Shown: positions 5,921-22,563 of the stretch, one piece after another
How the letters are laid out: each line of letters starts with the position of its first letter
How positions within the stretch are numbered: position 1 is the first letter of the stretch
IMG/VR virus record: IMGVR_UViG_3300036651_000069
Location: 1 to 30,835 of that record
DNA: 30,835 bases
Origin: a virus
Direction: 5' to 3' (one strand)
Made by a program: the position numbers and the translations under genes
Notes under the pieces: generated by a model
The model's database searches: none
What the model saw: the letters and a program-made list of their open reading frames with translations, nothing else
Told to the model about the DNA's origin: nothing

Positions 5921-6422
5921 CCACTTCCCCAATCTTGCCGGTCTTCTTGCTGAAGCCTCGATAGACTCCACCCCAGATTCCCACAGAATCAGAATCCCTG
6001 GCCGCCTCTAGACAGGTCTCACGCACAGGGCACTGTGGACAGTGCTTACGCCACTCGGCGTTCTCTCGGAGGTAGGCCAGCTTAGGCTGGTTACCATCGT
6101 CAAAGAAGATTGCAGGATCGACGTCAGCGCAAGCCGCTTCGTGCTGCCACTTCCTTGGTTGCTCCGCCTCCCAACCATCATAAGCTACAGGCTCCTGCTG
6201 CACTCTGTCAACCCGGGCTGGTTGTCGCAGGTAGGCGAGCTGTGACTCCTGGAGACCATCATAGAACCACTCGCGGTAGCGACCCTGGTGGAGGAGGTCT
6301 TCATCGTAGCTGAACTGGTCCGCAGCACCAAACTGGTAGCCCCACGCTCTGCGCGTGTCCATGTTGCCTGAAGGGTCGAAGGTGTGGTTGTACGGCTGCT
6401 GGGGAAGGATTCGGTGCGTCAT
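5853..6422 (-). CDS. WhiB-family transcription regulator
   Basis: 189 residues from ATG 6422. The WhiB domain is C-terminal: W-x5-ACADVDP, then KHCPQCPVRETCLEAA and the turn GIWGGV. Its four cysteines would hold a 4Fe-4S cluster, as in host WhiB proteins that bind the housekeeping sigma factor. An N-terminal extension of about 90 residues rich in Tyr/Gln/Arg is unusual for this family, whose members are commonly about 80-130 residues. It is the first gene of the leftward operon, divergent from the polymerase promoter, and is a good candidate early regulator. WhiB proteins are essentially restricted to Actinobacteria and their phages. Confidence 0.9.
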   Translation of the reverse strand: MTHRILPQQPYNHTFDPSGNMDTRRAWGYQFGAADQFSYDEDLLHQGRYREWFYDGLQESQLAYLRQPARVDRVQQEPVAYDGWEAEQPRKWQHEAACADVDPAIFFDDGNQPKLAYLRENAEWRKHCPQCPVRETCLEAARDSDSVGIWGGVYRGFSKKTGKIGEVDDRISTTEAHKPLSYEQLHSLR

Positions 6423-8534: not shown

Positions 8535-8563
8535 TTGACAGGTTAAACAGAGTGTGGTATAGT
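8535..8563 (+). promoter_or_regulatory. Strong sigma70-like promoter for tRNA array
   Basis: Consensus TTGACA (8535-8540), an optimal 17-nt spacer, and TATAGT (8558-8563). This is the best promoter seen in the window. It lies directly upstream of the tRNA cluster, with the start predicted near 8570, at the foot of a stem-loop. Confidence 0.8.
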
Positions 8564-8628: not shown

Positions 8629-8704
8629 AGCGAAGTGGACTGGAGGTAGGTTCCAGCGCGGCCCCATAAGCCGTACGACGTGGGTTCGAATCCCACCTTC
8701 GCCA
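8629..8704 (+). tRNA. tRNA with CAT anticodon (Met, initiator Met or Ile2)
   Basis: The T-arm is canonical (GTGGG-TTCGAAT-CCCAC) and the anticodon stem GCGGC/GCCGT closes the loop CCCATAA, giving CAT at 8665-8667. GCGAAG pairs with CTTCGC in the acceptor, while the outermost pair is A-C; unpaired ends at 1-72 are typical of initiators. The D-arm CTGG/CCAG sits two bases further in than usual. Position 33 is C rather than the near-universal U. The amino acid cannot be fixed from the anticodon alone. Confidence 0.65.
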
Positions 8705-8764
8705 CGAAGTCACCATCTGATAGCTACTACTATCATTCCGTCCTGGGAAACAGATGGTGGCCTT
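8705..8764 (+). other. Intergenic hairpin region
   Basis: ACCATCTG (about 8711-8718) pairs with CAGATGGT near 8751-8758. An inner GATAG/CTATC-type hairpin lies within the loop. No T-arm or reading frame is seen; this is likely a spacer structure of the tRNA precursor. Confidence 0.35.
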
Positions 8765-8837
8765 ATCCCTGTAGCTTAGAGGACAAAGCACCCGGCTACG
8801 AACCGGAAGAACGTGGGTTCAACTCCTACCAGGGATA
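8765..8837 (+). tRNA. tRNA-Arg(ACG)
   Basis: Perfect acceptor ATCCCTG/CAGGGAT with discriminator A. The anticodon loop CTACGAA sits on a CCGG/CCGG core stem, and the T-arm is GTGGG-TTCAACT-CCTAC. It would read CGT and, if A34 is deaminated, CGC and CGA. Confidence 0.88.
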
Positions 8838-8847
8838 CTAAGGGACT

Positions 8848-8892
8848 ATAGGGTCGCGCCCTATCTCCCTGAAGATAGATCGACGGATCTAT
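8848..8892 (+). other. Two adjacent perfect hairpins between tRNAs
   Basis: ATAGGG-TCGCG-CCCTAT (8848-8864) is followed by ATAGATC-GACG-GATCTAT (8875-8892). Neither has a downstream T-run, so they are more likely RNA-processing or spacer structures than terminators. Confidence 0.45.
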
Positions 8893-8930
8893 TGGGATGT
8901 GACAAGTTCGGAACTAGGTGACGTAAGTAC

Positions 8931-9004
8931 TGGGGCAGACCTAACAACCGTGGCAGCCCTACGAAAGCAGACCCGCATAGTTGGTTCGACTCCAACCCAT
9001 CCAC
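8931..9004 (+). pseudogene. tRNA-like remnant (T-arm only)
   Basis: A perfect T-arm, GTTGG-TTCGACT-CCAAC (8980-8996), lies at the right distance after CTACGAA, the same loop as in tRNA-Arg(ACG). No acceptor, D or anticodon stem can be formed with confidence. It abuts tRNA-Glu directly. It is probably a decayed tRNA, or one of unusual structure that cannot be folded by eye. Confidence 0.3.
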
Positions 9005-9075
9005 GTTGGATTGGTGTAACGGTAGCACGACAGATTCTCAATCTGTCGGCAGGGGTTCAACTCCCCTATCCAATA
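9005..9075 (+). tRNA. tRNA-Glu(CTC)
   Basis: The acceptor GTTGGAT pairs with ATCCAAT (one G-T). The D-stem is GTG/CAC, the anticodon stem is ACAGA/TCTGT around TTCTCAA, and the T-arm is AGGGG-TTCAACT-CCCCT. The anticodon CTC reads GAG. Confidence 0.9.
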
Positions 9076-9077
9076 CT

Positions 9078-9149
9078 CGACTCTTAGCTTAGTAGGGAAA
9101 GCGCCCGGTTGAAGCCCGGGAGTCCTGGGTTCGATCCCTGGAGAGTCGG
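9078..9149 (+). tRNA. tRNA-Phe(GAA)
   Basis: Perfect acceptor CGACTCT/AGAGTCG. The anticodon stem CCCGG/CCGGG carries the loop TTGAAGC. The T-arm CTGGG-TTCGATC-CCTGG has two wobble pairs. It is 2 nt after tRNA-Glu. Confidence 0.9.
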
Positions 9150-9151
9150 CT

Positions 9152-9228
9152 GGCGCTAGTCCTAACCTAGATGGTCCGGGGAGCGTTTGCAAAACGCTTG
9201 GTGAAGGGTTCGATTCCCTCTAGTGCTT
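9152..9228 (+). tRNA. tRNA-Cys(GCA)
   Basis: The acceptor GGCGCTA pairs with TAGTGCT (wobbles included), and the discriminator is T, the expected cysteine identity base. The anticodon stem AGCGT/ACGCT carries TTGCAAA, and the T-loop is TTCGATT. It stands 17 nt upstream of the first cysteine-rich microprotein gene. Confidence 0.9.
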
Positions 9229-9245
9229 CTATACAAGGAGTTTAT

Positions 9246-9353
9246 ATGAGTGCATGGGTATGCCAGTGTGATTGCACCAAGTGCTGCCAGTACGAAAACC
9301 TTGGCAAGGGAGCACACTGCGGTAACGCCCGATGTATCGGGCCACAATATTAG
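9246..9353 (+). CDS. Cysteine-rich microprotein A
   Basis: 35 residues from ATG 9246, behind a perfect AAGGAG with 5-nt spacing, placed between tRNA-Cys and the HNH gene. Seven residues are Cys: C6, C8, C10, C13, C14, C25 and C30, with His24 directly before C25. The core C-x-C-x-C-x2-C ... H-C-x4-C is the same as in the cluster at 11559-12225, so this is a dispersed member of that family. The Cys/His spacing suggests a metal-binding knuckle, or an iron-sulfur or disulfide miniprotein. There is no signal peptide, so it probably acts in the cytoplasm. No known family is recognised. Confidence 0.75.
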   Translation: MSAWVCQCDCTKCCQYENLGKGAHCGNARCIGPQY

Positions 9354-9358
9354 CCTTG

Positions 9359-9376
9359 CTCCTATAACATAACGGC
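9359..9376 (+). repeat. Truncated copy of the tRNA-Lys 5' end
   Basis: CTCCTATAACATAACGGC matches 16 of 18 bases of 9677-9694, the 5' part (acceptor and D-arm) of tRNA-Lys. It lies just upstream of the HNH gene, so the endonuclease gene is bracketed by a direct repeat of tRNA sequence. Confidence 0.7.
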
Positions 9377-9378
9377 GA

Positions 9379-9690
9379 ATGATGCGAAAGAGACAAAGCA
9401 AAGAGTACATGGCCAACTATATGCGCGAACGCTACAAGCGTGATGCCGAGTGGATGCGTCAGTACAAGGTTGAGCAGGGCTGCATGGACTGCGGGTACAA
9501 TGCACACCACGCAGGTCTAGAGTTCGACCACAGGGAGCCCAGAGCTACGCACGGTGGCACAACAGTTGCCAGGCTTATGGGTCAGGGCCTCACCAGAATC
9601 AAGGCCGAGATAGAGAAGTGTGATGTAGTGTGTGGTACCTGTCATGGTATTCGCACTTGGAATAGAAAGCAGCAAACTCCTATAACTTAA
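9379..9690 (+). CDS. HNH homing endonuclease inserted at tRNA-Lys
   Basis: 103 residues. The N-terminus is basic and helical (KRQSKEYMANYMRERYK). CMDCGYNAHHAGLEFDHREP supplies the first zinc knuckle and the HNH strand (His in FDH), and the second knuckle is CDVVCGTCHGIRTWNR. The layout is typical of free-standing phage HNH enzymes. The coding sequence runs into the tRNA-Lys gene: the stop TAA is 9688-9690, inside the D-arm. A broken copy of the same tRNA 5' end lies upstream, which indicates insertion into the tRNA gene with its 5' end rebuilt. ATG 9379 and 9382 are both possible starts. Confidence 0.88.
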   Translation: MMRKRQSKEYMANYMRERYKRDAEWMRQYKVEQGCMDCGYNAHHAGLEFDHREPRATHGGTTVARLMGQGLTRIKAEIEKCDVVCGTCHGIRTWNRKQQTPIT

Positions 9691-9747
9691 AGGCCAAAGT
9701 ACCAGGCTCTTACCCTGGGAATCAGTGTTCGATTCACTGTGGGAGTA
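9676..9747 (+). tRNA. tRNA-Lys(CTT)
   Basis: The acceptor ACTCCTA pairs with TGGGAGT, the anticodon stem CCAGG/CCTGG carries CTCTTAC, and the T-arm is CAGTG-TTCGATT-CACTG, with discriminator A. Its first 15 bases also encode the end of the HNH protein. Confidence 0.9.
9677..9694 (+). repeat. Intact partner of the HNH-flanking direct repeat
   Basis: CTCCTATAACTTAAAGGC within tRNA-Lys. The matching truncated copy is at 9359-9376. Confidence 0.7.
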
Positions 9748-9852
9748 CGCGAGGGTAGCTCCCTCTGGCACACAGCTTAGAAAGCTAGGTTCAACTCCTG
9801 ACTATATTCTGCAAAGAGTACTGTTGGCCGGACCGGAGTCCGGGTGTGTCAA
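9748..9852 (+). other. tRNA spacer with hairpins and a T-arm-like relic
   Basis: GAGGG-TAGCT-CCCTC (9751-9765) and CCGGAC-CGGA-GTCCGG (9828-9843) are perfect hairpins. Between them, TAGGTTCAACTCCTG looks like a decayed T-arm, but no complete tRNA can be folded. No reading frame is convincing. Confidence 0.4.
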
Positions 9853-9923
9853 GCTCGGTTCGTCTAATGGTAGGGCTTCTGGCCTACACCCAGAAAGCGG
9901 GAGTTCGATTCTCTCACCGAGTA
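9853..9923 (+). tRNA. tRNA-Val(TAC), with C at position 33
   Basis: The acceptor GCTCGGT pairs with ACCGAGT, with discriminator A. The anticodon stem TCTGG/CCAGA carries the loop CCTACAC, giving TAC. The T-arm is GGGAG-TTCGATT-CTCTC. Position 33 is C instead of the near-universal U. Confidence 0.85.
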
Positions 9924-10009
9924 CGAAGACAAAACTTCACTCTGTTGAAAAGTCTTGGTCAAAAATAAGGAACAGAGTCGAACAGGGGATCGCGATAGGA
10001 TCCCCACCT

Positions 10010-10081
10010 GCCCTAGTGGTCTAATGGCGATGACATCTGACTTCCAATCAGATGACGCGGGTTCGATTCCTGCCTGGGGTA
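10010..10081 (+). tRNA. tRNA-Gly(TCC)
   Basis: The acceptor GCCCTAG pairs with CTGGGGT, the D-stem is GTC/GAC, the anticodon stem TCTGA/TCAGA carries CTTCCAA, and the T-arm is GCGGG-TTCGATT-CCTGC. It reads GGA. Confidence 0.9.
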
Positions 10082-10164
10082 CGCTCTTACGGATATACCG
10101 TAAACACCTAGCGGTGACGGCTCGCCTCGACAGTGGTGACCCAATGGTAAGGGTAACTGTCAAT
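10082..10164 (+). other. tRNA spacer with hairpins
   Basis: TTACGG-ATATA-CCGTAA (10087-10103) is a perfect hairpin. A second, GACAGT ... ACTGTC, closes near 10131-10160. No gene is seen. Confidence 0.4.
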
Positions 10165-10247
10165 GGATTGGTGGCAGAGTGGTAATGCAGCAGCCTGCTA
10201 AGCTGTAGTGTCTTCGGACACCGTAGGTTCGAATCCTACCCTTTCCG
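10165..10247 (+). tRNA. tRNA-Ser(GCT)
   Basis: Class II tRNA with a long variable arm (GTGTC-TTCG-GACAC). The anticodon stem GCAGC/GCTGT carries CTGCTAA, the T-arm is GTAGG-TTCGAAT-CCTAC, and the discriminator is G as expected for serine. The acceptor GGATTGG/CCTTTCC has two T-T mismatches at pairs 4 and 5. Confidence 0.88.
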
Positions 10248-10289
10248 CGCCGAGGTTGCCAGATCCTTCTGTGAAGAAAACTGGCGAAT

Positions 10290-10370
10290 GGATTGCAGGC
10301 CAATGGTGGCAAACTGTCTAGAAAACAGTCGCGGGTAACACCGTACAGGGTTCGATTCCTTGGCTTTCCG
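10290..10370 (+). tRNA. tRNA-Ser(AGA)
   Basis: Class II, with anticodon stem ACTGT/ACAGT around CTAGAAA, D-stem GCC/GGC, long variable arm, T-loop TTCGATT and discriminator G. The acceptor GGATTGC/GCTTTCC shows the same two T-T mismatches as tRNA-Ser(GCT), suggesting that the two genes arose by duplication. Confidence 0.88.
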
Positions 10371-10459
10371 CACAGCGGCAAGGTCTCCGTTACGTCGGAG
10401 ATAAAGGCATGCATAGAAAATCGGGTAGCCAACGGGTCCGGTGCCTTGATCCGCTTTAA

Positions 10460-10532
10460 GCTGTTCTGGCGTAATGGATAGCGCAATCGTTTCCTAAACG
10501 ATCCGGTTCCGGTTCGAATCCGGAGGACAGCA
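10460..10532 (+). tRNA. tRNA-Arg(CCT)
   Basis: The acceptor GCTGTTC pairs with GGACAGC, the D-stem is GCG/CGC, the anticodon stem ATCGT/ACGAT carries TTCCTAA, and the T-arm is TCCGG-TTCGAAT-CCGGA. It reads AGG, a rare codon in high-GC actinobacteria. Confidence 0.9.
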
Positions 10533-10536
10533 CCAA

Positions 10537-10611
10537 GCTCCTGTAGCCCAACGGGTAGGAGGCGCCTGCCTTAGAAGCAGGACAGTGTCAGTTCGAATCT
10601 GACCAGGAGTA
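10537..10611 (+). tRNA. tRNA-Leu(TAG) with short variable arm
   Basis: The acceptor GCTCCTG pairs with CAGGAGT, the D-stem is GCC/GGC, the anticodon stem CCTGC/GCAGG carries CTTAGAA, and the T-arm is GTCAG-TTCGAAT-CTGAC. The anticodon TAG reads the leucine codon CTA; it is not an amber suppressor. The variable region is only 5 nt, whereas bacterial tRNA-Leu normally has a long arm. Confidence 0.85.
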
Positions 10612-10704
10612 CAATGGCTGTACGGGATAACACGCCAGTGTCCCAAGGGTGATCACACCCACGGGAGACAAATTCAACCCGTAAAACCAGGCCTAGCCTG
10701 GTGA
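10612..10704 (+). other. tRNA spacer with strong hairpin
   Basis: ACCAGGC-CTA-GCCTGGT (10686-10702) is a perfect 7-bp stem. Upstream, TACGGG (about 10620) can pair with CCCGTA (about 10678) and GGGT with ACCC, giving a vaguely tRNA-like outline without a canonical T-loop. It may be a decayed tRNA. Confidence 0.35.
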
Positions 10705-10778
10705 CAGGATGTGGGAAAGCTTAGTAATCCGCTCGCCTTGGAAGCGAGAGAACGCAGGTGCGAATCCTGCCATCCTGA
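10705..10778 (+). tRNA. tRNA-Pro(TGG)
   Basis: Perfect acceptor CAGGATG/CATCCTG, D-stem GGA/TCC, anticodon stem CTCGC/GCGAG around CTTGGAA, and T-arm GCAGG/CCTGC. The T-loop is TGCGAAT, so position 55 is G rather than U. Confidence 0.88.
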
Positions 10779-10779
10779 C

Positions 10780-10851
10780 TAGTCCTTGGTATAACGGCTA
10801 TTATACTCGGCTCCAACCCGAGTGATGTGGGTTCGATTCCTACAGGACTTG
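10780..10851 (+). tRNA. tRNA-Trp(CCA)
   Basis: The acceptor TAGTCCT pairs with AGGACTT except at the outermost T-T. The anticodon stem CTCGG/CCGAG carries CTCCAAC, the T-arm is GTGGG-TTCGATT-CCTAC, and the discriminator G is usual for tryptophan. Confidence 0.88.
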
Positions 10852-10857
10852 CTTCAA

Positions 10858-10930
10858 TGGCGTATAGCTTAACTGGTAAAGCGAGAGATTGTTAATCTCT
10901 AAGATGCAGGTTCGAATCCTGCTATGTCAG
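10858..10930 (+). tRNA. tRNA-Asn(GTT)
   Basis: The acceptor TGGCGTA pairs with TATGTCA using two wobbles. The D-stem is GCTT/AAGC, the anticodon stem AGAGA/TCTCT carries TTGTTAA, the T-arm is GCAGG-TTCGAAT-CCTGC, and the discriminator is G. Confidence 0.9.
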
Positions 10931-10935
10931 CTCAA

Positions 10936-11007
10936 CGGGCGTTAGCTTAACGGTAGAGCACCACTCTGTCAAGGTGGTAGGAGCGGGTTCGAATCCCGTA
11001 CGTCTGA
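10936..11007 (+). tRNA. tRNA-Asp(GTC)
   Basis: The acceptor CGGGCGT pairs with ACGTCTG with wobbles. The anticodon stem CCACT/GGTGG carries CTGTCAA and the T-arm is GCGGG-TTCGAAT-CCCGT. The discriminator is A, where aspartate usually has G. Confidence 0.88.
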
Positions 11008-11012
11008 CTCTG

Positions 11013-11027
11013 CTCACCTTTGGTGAG
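11013..11027 (+). other. Perfect hairpin between tRNA-Asp and tRNA-Gln
   Basis: CTCACC-TTT-GGTGAG. There is no T-run, so it is probably a spacer or processing structure. Confidence 0.45.
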
Positions 11028-11031
11028 TTGT

Positions 11032-11103
11032 TCCCTGTTGGTGTAACCGGCAGCATAGATGGCTCTGAACCATCTGGTCGAGGTTCGAATCCTCGGTAGG
11101 GAG
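11032..11103 (+). tRNA. tRNA-Gln(CTG)
   Basis: The acceptor TCCCTGT pairs with GTAGGGA, the anticodon stem GATGG/CCATC carries CTCTGAA, the T-arm is CGAGG-TTCGAAT-CCTCG, and the discriminator is G. Confidence 0.9.
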
Positions 11104-11108
11104 CACAA

Positions 11109-11184
11109 CGCGTGGGTCCTGGGAGACATGAGAGGCTGTAACCCTTTCGCTTCGGCTTGCTAGGTTCGATTCCTAGACACGTGA
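11109..11184 (+). tRNA. tRNA-Tyr(GTA)
   Basis: The acceptor CGCGTGG pairs with ACACGTG except at pair 7. The anticodon stem AGAGG/CCTTT carries CTGTAAC, a class II variable arm with a TTCG-capped hairpin follows, and the T-arm is CTAGG-TTCGATT-CCTAG. Bacterial tRNA-Tyr is class II, as here. Confidence 0.82.
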
Positions 11185-11189
11185 CGCTA

Positions 11190-11263
11190 GCTGTAGTGTG
11201 CCAAATGGTAGAGCAGCCAGATTCAAAATCTGGCGGTTGCAAGTTCGAATCTTGCCTATAGCA
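11190..11263 (+). tRNA. tRNA-Leu(CAA) with short variable arm
   Basis: The acceptor GCTGTAG pairs with CTATAGC, the anticodon stem CCAGA/TCTGG carries TTCAAAA, the T-arm is GCAAG-TTCGAAT-CTTGC, and the discriminator is A. The variable region is 5 nt (CGGTT), not the long arm expected of leucine tRNAs. Confidence 0.85.
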
Positions 11264-11265
11264 CT

Positions 11266-11336
11266 GTGGTCGTAGCTCAATGGCAGAGCTCTTGACTGTG
11301 ACTCAAGAGGTCCGGGTTCAACTCCCGGCGATCACC
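11266..11336 (+). tRNA. tRNA-His(GTG)
   Basis: The acceptor GTGGTCG pairs with CGATCAC, the anticodon stem CTTGA/TCAAG carries CTGTGAC, and the T-arm is CCGGG-TTCAACT-CCCGG. The discriminator C fits histidine. Confidence 0.92.
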
Positions 11337-11338
11337 CC

Positions 11339-11412
11339 TGGGACGTAGCTCAGCTGGTTAGAGCACTCGTCTGATACACGAGAGATCGTGGGTTCAAGTC
11401 CCACCGTTCCGA
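11339..11412 (+). tRNA. tRNA-Ile(GAT)
   Basis: The acceptor TGGGACG pairs with CGTTCCG (wobbles at 1 and 4), the D-arm is GCTC/GAGC, the anticodon stem CTCGT/ACGAG carries CTGATAC, and the T-arm is GTGGG-TTCAAGT-CCCAC. Confidence 0.92.
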
Positions 11413-11455
11413 CTAGGGCCTGCGGAGAGCCTTGGTAGCTCCTAAATCTCAGCAT

Positions 11456-11526
11456 GCCCTGTTAGCTCAATGGTAGAGCAGCTGTCTTGTAAACAGTAGA
11501 CCGGAGTTCGATTCTTCGATGGGGAT
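11456..11526 (+). tRNA. tRNA-Thr(TGT)
   Basis: The acceptor GCCCTGT pairs with ATGGGGA except at the first pair (G-A). The D-arm is GCTC/GAGC, the anticodon stem GCTGT/ACAGT carries CTTGTAA, and the T-arm is CGGAG-TTCGATT-CTTCG. It is the last tRNA of the array, 32 nt before the microprotein cluster. Confidence 0.88.
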
Positions 11527-11558
11527 CCAAGGAAAGAAAAGCTATTAACAGGAGCGAC

Positions 11559-11693
11559 ATGGGAGAGTCTGGTTGCACATGCTCATGCAGCTTGTGTAGT
11601 TCATTCATGAAGCACTGCTGGGATGCATCGAAGGGATGCTACAATGTTGGTTTCAGTTGGTGGTCCGTGCAACTGTTCCTGTTCGGGATGTAG
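11559..11693 (+). CDS. Cysteine-rich microprotein B
   Basis: 44 residues from ATG 11559, with GGAG 4 nt upstream. It carries the family core C6-x-C8-x-C10-x2-C13-x5-H19-C20-x6-C27. After C27 the frame continues for 17 residues rich in aromatic and hydrophobic residues, overlapping the start of microprotein C. It begins the microprotein cluster directly after tRNA-Thr and is probably co-transcribed with the tRNA array. The function is unknown; the Cys/His pattern suggests metal binding. Confidence 0.7.
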   Translation: MGESGCTCSCSLCSSFMKHCWDASKGCYNVGFSWWSVQLFLFGM

Positions 11694-11739
11694 TGGCGGT
11701 ATTCATTGCCGCCGTAGGCGTTGGGGATGCGAGGACTAA
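11644..11739 (+). CDS. Cysteine-rich microprotein C
   Basis: 31 residues from ATG 11644, with AAGGGA about 7 nt upstream inside gene B. The core is C9-x-C11-x-C13-x2-C16-x4-H21-C22-x6-C29, with four arginines between C22 and W27. Its stop TAA overlaps the ATG of microprotein D (TAATG). The spacing after C16 is the same as in D (x4-H-C-x6-C), which is strong evidence that the two are paralogues and not chance frames. Confidence 0.75.
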   Translation: MLVSVGGPCNCSCSGCSGGIHCRRRRWGCED

Positions 11740-11828
11740 TGTTGTGTGTTTGCGGCTGCTACTATTGCGGCAAGGATGACCACTGCGCCCGTCGTGGCGC
11801 CGGGTGTTTTAAGGCACCAATCAAGTGA
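11739..11828 (+). CDS. Cysteine-rich microprotein D
   Basis: 29 residues from ATG 11739, overlapping the stop of C. The core is C3-x-C5-x-C7-x2-C10-x4-H15-C16-x6-C23. The motif begins at residue 3, so the protein is almost only the motif plus a basic tail (KAPIK). Its TGA overlaps the GTG start of E. The one-base and four-base overlaps along B to E indicate translational coupling. Confidence 0.75.
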   Translation: MLCVCGCYYCGKDDHCARRGAGCFKAPIK

Positions 11829-12016
11829 AGAAGCGCCCAACCAGCCACCGCGCCCCATATGATCCTGCCAAGGATGACCCGCCCTCCGAAGGGTATACCT
11901 TCTGTGATAAGCAGAACTGCTGCCACTGCCCCCCTTGTCTTTCAGGGGCACACACATCCGGCGAGACAATCGTTCACTGCAACCAGCATGAGAATGGGTG
12001 CCATCTACAATGCTAA
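11825..12016 (+). CDS. Cysteine-rich microprotein E, with N-terminal extension
   Basis: 63 residues from GTG 11825 (GTGA overlap with D). A charged, proline-rich N-terminal part of about 26 residues precedes the Cys-rich part: C27, C32, C33-x-C35-x2-C38-x12-H51-C52-x6-C59-x3-C63. The end H-C-N-Q-H-E-N-G-C-H-L-Q-C is close to those of F and G, defining a subgroup with extra histidines and a final Cys. The ribosome-binding site is weak, so translation probably depends on D. Confidence 0.72.
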   Translation: MKKRPTSHRAPYDPAKDDPPSEGYTFCDKQNCCHCPPCLSGAHTSGETIVHCNQHENGCHLQC

Positions 12017-12125
12017 CTGTCCTTCAGCCGGTGGTTGTTCCTGCCCTGACTGTAAGCCAGGTGGCCACTCCTCGGGTCACTCGCACTGCTACCAACACAG
12101 CAACGGTTGTCACCACGCTTGCTAG
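11994..12125 (+). CDS. Cysteine-rich microprotein F
   Basis: 43 residues from ATG 11994 (ATG 11988 is also in frame), starting inside gene E. Cysteines are C9, C15-x-C17-x2-C20-x10-H31-C32-x6-C39-x3-C43. His25, His29, His31, His35, His40 and His41 make it very rich in possible metal ligands. No clear ribosome-binding site is seen. The stop TAG at 12123 is followed at once by the Cys-rich part of frame G in the +1 frame. Confidence 0.7.
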   Translation: MGAIYNANCPSAGGCSCPDCKPGGHSSGHSHCYQHSNGCHHAC

Positions 12126-12225
12126 TAGGTGCGAACTTGGTGGCTACTGCTGGTGCATCGGTAACGGTTGCTGCCCAAACAACCACTGTAATACGCATGG
12201 TAACAAGTGCCATCTGTCCTGCTAA
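12010..12225 (+). CDS. Cysteine-rich microprotein G (start or frameshift uncertain)
   Basis: The open frame from ATG 12010 (overlapping the stop of E) encodes 71 residues. The first 40, which overlap F, have no Cys and look like a shadow frame. The last 31 (from 12130) carry C41, C47-x-C49-x4-C54-C55-x3-H59-C60-x6-C67-x3-C71, clearly of the family, with the E/F-type ending. The Cys-rich part begins 5 nt after the stop of F and has no good start of its own. Either it is made from ATG 12010, or from F by a +1 frameshift, or it is a copy that has lost its start. Confidence 0.5.
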   Translation: MLTVLQPVVVPALTVSQVATPRVTRTATNTATVVTTLASRCELGGYCWCIGNGCCPNNHCNTHGNKCHLSC

Positions 12226-12235
12226 ACAAAGAGAA

Positions 12236-12259
12236 GCCCCTAGCCGAAAGGCTAGGGGC
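12236..12259. terminator. Bidirectional intrinsic terminator
   Basis: GCCCCTAGCC-GAAA-GGCTAGGGGC, a perfect 10-bp GC-rich stem with a tetraloop. It is followed on the plus strand by ATTTCTT and on the minus strand by TTCTCTTTG. It separates the rightward tRNA/microprotein transcript from the leftward late operon. Confidence 0.9.
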
Positions 12260-22380: not shown

Positions 22381-22491
22381 TCCGTGCTACTCCCATTTTA
22401 AGCCGCGCCACGCCGGGGTTGCGTGCCGGATACTTTGATTGATGTCCCAGACTATATACACGAACACGTTGCTGAGTTAGACGTATCGGTG

Positions 22492-22563
22492 TGGACCAAC
22501 GGGGAATCGAACCCCGACCCTCCGGGTGCAAGCCGGATGTGCTTCCGTTATCACTAAAGGCCC
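22492..22563 (-). tRNA. tRNA-Ala(TGC) in the late operon
   Basis: Read on the minus strand. The T-arm is CGGGG-TTCGATT-CCCCG, the anticodon stem TCCGG/CCGGA carries CTTGCAC, and the D-stem is GTG/CAC. The acceptor GGGCCTT/TTGGTCC has G3-U70, the classic alanine identity pair, with discriminator A; pairs 6 and 7 are T-T mismatches. It is the only tRNA outside the array, and the only alanine tRNA in the window. Confidence 0.8.

Follow-up and report, generated by a model that had tools for sequence, protein, structure and literature searches.

The tRNA–microprotein unit

The window, i.e., the whole stretch of DNA analysed, had 30,835 bases and corresponded to the IMG/VR virus record IMGVR_UViG_3300036651_000069, from a soil phage. 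Its major capsid protein shared 60% identity with the one in Beephvirinae phages of Streptomyces (e.g., Manuel), and its DNA polymerase 45% with DNA polymerase I of mycobacteriophages. Based on these two similarities, the host of the phage is probably an actinobacterium. After the DNA polymerase gene, the plus strand carried, in this order, a promoter-like site, tRNA genes, a row of microprotein genes (B to G) and a hairpin, with an additional microprotein gene (A) among the tRNAs:

8535–8563 (+): promoter-like site, sigma-70-type and near-consensus (TTGACA-17-TATAGT, 11/12, extended −10), 66 bases upstream of the first tRNA of the unit
8629–11529 (+): tRNA array of 21 genes, which also holds gene A and the HNH endonuclease frame
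9246–9353 (+): microprotein A, 35 aa, 7 Cys, Shine-Dalgarno AAGGAG, inside the tRNA array
9379–9690 (+): HNH endonuclease frame within the tRNA array (PHROG 3106, E 4e-23)
11559–11693 (+): microprotein B, 44 aa, short type, Shine-Dalgarno AGGAG
11644–11739 (+): microprotein C, 31 aa, short type, overlapping B
11739–11828 (+): microprotein D, 29 aa, short type, TAATG junction with C
11825–12016 (+): microprotein E, 63 aa, long type, GTG start, GTGA junction with D
11988 or 11994–12125 (+): microprotein F, 43–45 aa, long type, starting at ATG 11988 or 11994 inside E
12061–12225 (+): microprotein G, long-type variant (C-x-C-x4-C-C), domain at 12124–12222, start uncertain
12236–12259 (+): strong hairpin, terminator-like in both directions, with 10 pairs (8 G-C), a GAAA loop and then a T-rich tail

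The frames A to G had been described in an earlier note made from the sequence, and all their coordinates and Cys/His spacings were reproduced, as was the tRNA array preceding the row. B, C and D fitted C-x-C-x-C-x2-C-x(4-5)-H-C-x6-C, while E, F and G formed a subgroup ending in H-C-x6-C-x3-C. The overlaps of the coupled type were recovered at the C/D (TAATG) and D/E (GTGA) junctions. From the reported 6–8 Cys in 29–71 residues, the Cys counts held, whereas the 71 residues given for G apply only if translation starts at ATG 12010. The window products have ~29–63 residues. No ATG, GTG or TTG was found close to the domain of G, the nearest in-frame starts being GTG 12061 and ATG 12010, and yet the G orthologues in the related records L005 and L008 do have a close ATG. 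G may thus start elsewhere or be reached by a frame change from F.

The hairpin closes the unit against minus-strand genes, which start beyond it. Together, the promoter-like site before the tRNAs and the hairpin after the microproteins suggest that both gene sets belong to one transcription unit. This layout recurred in related phages. In L005 the same promoter-like site precedes the first tRNA-Met (6017–6045), and in L009 a tRNA-Met is preceded by one with a 10/12 match (9336–9364). A hairpin followed the last microprotein in L005 (8649–8676), L009 (12399–12422) and L172 (3477–3500). As an exception, one group of members in L005 precedes the promoter-like site.

Short frames adjoining tRNA genes could also be leader peptides or attenuators, in which Cys/His-rich frames sense charged tRNA-Cys or tRNA-His and regulate the genes downstream. 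Cysteine-rich attenuator frames have been described in mycobacteria. However, in the window and in three relatives the row ends the unit and is followed by the terminator-like hairpin rather than by a regulated gene. The spacing and other residues were conserved and runs of Cys were absent. We therefore rejected the leader-peptide explanation, which is highly improbable.

Within the array, a degenerate tRNA-like stretch of Cys type was seen at 9153–9226 (+), with the anticodon region GTTTGCAAAAC. It was not called by ARAGORN, and Rfam matched it weakly to tRNA-Sec (26 bits, under the gathering threshold). Counting this candidate, the array would gain Cys and reach a nearly full isotype set. 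A lone tRNA-Ala was located among the late genes at 22491–22563 (−), the array itself having no Ala.

The Cys/His pattern and its occurrence in other phages

The strict pattern C-x-C-x2-C-x(1-20)-H-C-x(3-8)-C had 5 matches in 700 bases, whereas 500 dinucleotide shuffles averaged 0.002 matches and never exceeded 1. In 902 kb of bacterial DNA there were 2 matches. Shuffling thus almost never yields the repeated spacing, which the earlier note had held to be beyond chance. The consensus was C-x-C-x-C-x2-C-x4-H-C-x6-C for the short type and C-x-C-x-C-x2-C-x(n)-H-C-x2-H-x3-C-H-x2-C for the long type, and the alignment of 57 members gave M-x4-C-x5-C-x-C-x-C-x2-C-x(n)-H-C-x2-H-x2-G-C-H-x2-C, supporting the idea of a repeated Cys/His minidomain. 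The members were 25–64 residues long, with a median of 8 Cys in 43 residues, a median net charge of ~0 and 13% ILVMF. No export signal was evident in most of them.

Relatives were sought starting from the DNA polymerase and by degenerate DNA patterns, and profiles were then applied. Members were found in at least 27 IMG/VR records (7 from one search and 20 more from another), a few of which appear, from their identical peptides, to be near-copies (G037 of G021; G038 and G039 of G020). Among the matches listed when viral contigs were scanned with the short-type pattern, and genome contigs with the long-type one, most were due to chance and were discarded. For a held-out test, a profile from the 7 window peptides alone was run on related phages outside the profile, and gave matches with E values of 6e-9 (L005), 3e-7 (L008), 1e-4 (L005) and 6e-4 (L009). 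The profile search of related phages proposed in the earlier note therefore did find members, and the Cys/His positions were conserved in them; the lack of conservation, which that note had named as one refuting outcome, did not occur. Microprotein A matched the family profile with an E of 1.5e-7, being itself a row of that profile, and orthologues of E were present in L005, L010 and L023.

The rows comprised ~10 genes in L172 (2171–3461), 8 in L186 and in L005, and 7 or 8 in L345. In the 166 kb contig G015, ~9 members were found in the stretches read. In the large contigs G015 and G016 there were genes with distant relatives in 150-kb mycobacteriophages, so that more than one phage group carries the family.

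Members were located <1 kb from a tRNA in most records read. Exceptions were G015 and G016, where some members lay far from tRNAs, and several records, most of them short or partly read, with no tRNA seen near a member. One 37.9 kb phage contig (G028, with L335 and L336) had 37 tRNA genes by ARAGORN, a very high density. Among 19 annotated isolate phages, most of them with tRNA genes, no member was found; the family is therefore not a needed companion of tRNAs.

This linkage bears on the possibility that the peptides are RNA-, tRNA- or ribosome-binding zinc knuckles, which protect, process or deliver the co-encoded phage tRNAs. The recurrent proximity to tRNA arrays and the predicted co-transcription argue for such a function, and C-x2-H-x3-C-x3-C is vaguely like a zinc knuckle. 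On the other side, the median net charge is 0 and not basic, a feature that would speak mildly against nucleic-acid binding. Further, members are also found far from tRNAs in the large phages, and many tRNA-carrying phages have none. We consider a zinc-knuckle function quite unlikely.

When four members were compared by tblastn with 50,697 annotated phages, any matches were at chance level. Those to Erwinia phage Kwan and Gordonia phage Nedarya (E 7) were within or opposite larger annotated genes, and a weak match to Mycobacterium phage Myrna was gp74, a membrane-like protein in which the pattern is absent. In 396 genomes from the phylum of an Arthrobacter there was no match at E 1e-4, a search which shows little because it had no known positive.

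Selection on the microproteins and age of the paralogues

Between orthologues, amino acids were kept and synonymous sites were heavily changed, with the DNA polymerase as yardstick, and Cys codons swapped between TGC and TGT. With the Cys/His positions excluded, pN/pS was <1 in 21/21 pairs (pooled 0.31/0.64), the pairs not being all independent, as several share a sequence. At the Cys/His (ligand) positions pN was 0.10, and constraint elsewhere was weaker. One orthologue was protein-identical between two phages over ~42–43 residues, its DNA differing only synonymously. Because the orthologues are under purifying selection, the frames are genes. The comparison of synonymous with non-synonymous change suggested by the earlier note thus bears out its reading of them as coding. 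Shine-Dalgarno sequences preceded 38 of 64 members, twice as frequent as for background ATGs (29%). Many starts overlap the preceding stop by 4 or 1 bases (−4, −1), and the overlapping genes are probably translationally coupled.

The frames are below the usual gene-calling length limits, which would fit an artefact, i.e., chance frames or a non-coding repeat translating into Cys and His. Against it stand the shuffles, the held-out profile matches, the absence of DNA repeats and the synonymous substitution pattern. The latter refutes an artefact, and we give it a negligible probability.

No direct DNA repeats of ≥18 nt were found among the window copies, and for 51 of the 57 members the nearest relative was in another phage record, a tendency rather than a tree, many of these identities being only ~30%. 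For these two reasons the copies are, as far as their sequences tell, old and diverged paralogues inherited as a set. The earlier proposal that they were duplicated in place thus fails for their recent history.

Comparison with known families and possible role

PHROGs, Pfam, NCBIfam and PADLOC gave no significant family match, only single weak ones. The best of these (E 0.009), for 1 of 57 members, was to a PHROG whose function is not known. PHROG 11730, weakly matched by D, was discarded, as it did not match the member-bearing records. A search of PDB by sequence (hmmsearch) had no match (best E 1.5). The AlphaFold2 model was weak (pLDDT 66.5, pTM 0.43), and Foldseek with that model found nothing in PDB. 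No description of such a family was found in the literature. Fremin et al. 2022 reportedly predicted small phage protein families from short genes which gene callers miss, and some members may already be listed there with no function assigned. The microprotein family is, by all these comparisons, an unannotated one matching no library searched, in agreement with the previous statement that no described family has this pattern.

Two known groups of small proteins resemble the family in part. The haloarchaeal CPxCG zinc-finger proteins (e.g., Brz, PMC2253796) are also small and single-domain, with paired Cys. However, CPxCG pairs are missing from the phage consensus, and the CPxCG proteins (PMC2253796) are archaeal regulators, not tandem rows in phages. 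The bacterial metallothioneins (SmtA/BmtA, PDB 1jjd, 6gv7) are likewise small and Cys/His-rich, with CxCxxC near the start and no large hydrophobic core. They differ in the second half, which is YC-x3-C-x3-H...C-x-H-x2-C-x-C in metallothioneins and HC-x2-H-x3-C-H-x2-C in the phage family. The latter also forms rows of diverged paralogues. None of the 57 members matched the bacterial metallothionein family PF02069 in Pfam at E 0.1 or better.

The resemblance to metallothioneins raises the possibility of a phage-encoded buffer for soft metals such as zinc and copper, or for thiol redox, with the copy number setting the dose. The Cys content, the few hydrophobic residues and near-neutral charge, the ligand positions as the most conserved ones, the several copies per genome and the shared CxCxxC opening are all consistent with a buffer. 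In contrast, hhalign of the family against SmtA and two PDB relatives gave a probability of only 0.2%. Paralogues remain distinct from one another across phages, with as many as all of ~42–43 residues unchanged, and non-ligand positions are constrained, which a pure chelator would not need. Such selection outside the ligands would argue mildly against a pure metal buffer, and we regard a buffer as rather unlikely, although it keeps some probability because the constraint there is weaker than at the ligands.

We favour, with a probability of roughly 0.48, zinc-binding cytoplasmic microproteins, each binding a particular partner, which would be produced alongside the tRNAs and serve as a set in host takeover or counter-defence. 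The peptides would stay in the reducing cytoplasm, most of them having no evident export signal, and would fold around zinc, with probably two ions in the long type. Zinc is proposed due to the Cys/His at fixed spacing in small peptides without an evident export signal. Less surely, each paralogue may be stabilised by zinc and bind a partner of its own, from the host or the phage; specific binding is favoured over plain metal buffering because of the constraint outside the ligands and the separate retention of paralogues. In the weakest step, the row might act as small host-takeover or counter-defence factors. Such a shared role is suggested by the joint production with tRNAs, since phage tRNAs are reported in the abstracts of PMC10264068 and PMC11555353 to evade tRNA-targeting defences. 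Phage tRNA arrays, to which these studies (PMC10264068, PMC11555353) assign a counter-defence role, share a predicted transcription unit with the microproteins, and the two abstracts give no protein partner of the microprotein kind. PADLOC matched no member to known defence systems.

If real in cells, this is an unannotated gene family which shares a transcription unit with phage tRNAs, and the purpose of these tRNAs is under debate. Entire rows of diverged microproteins, as many as ~10 per genome, may go unseen because of gene-calling length limits. Possible, if doubtful, is the broader proposal that phages of actinobacteria, and perhaps others, would carry up to ~10 different zinc-binding microproteins in their tRNA operons, each with its own host target, as a host-takeover or counter-defence store missed by gene callers. 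The row offers a direct handle on which defence, metal pool or translation step it affects.

Similar patterns were also seen in other contigs. A Saccharimonadia MAG contig (L349) encoded at 1441–1677 (−) a protein of 78 residues that fits the long-type pattern (E 3e-4 with the profile), together with Nramp-like and ABC-permease-like frames, judged from their translations. No relative of this protein was found among the other genomes of its class searched. In 287 genomes from the phylum of a Saccharimonadia MAG there was no match at E 1e-4, a result that shows little because the search had no known positive. The shorter pattern CxCxxCxxGxHC was found in a 40-residue frame (L160, 3837–3956, +) and towards the end of a frame of 320 residues (L152, 8683–9642, +). 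Both had no PHROG match, and they possibly belong to a wider family.
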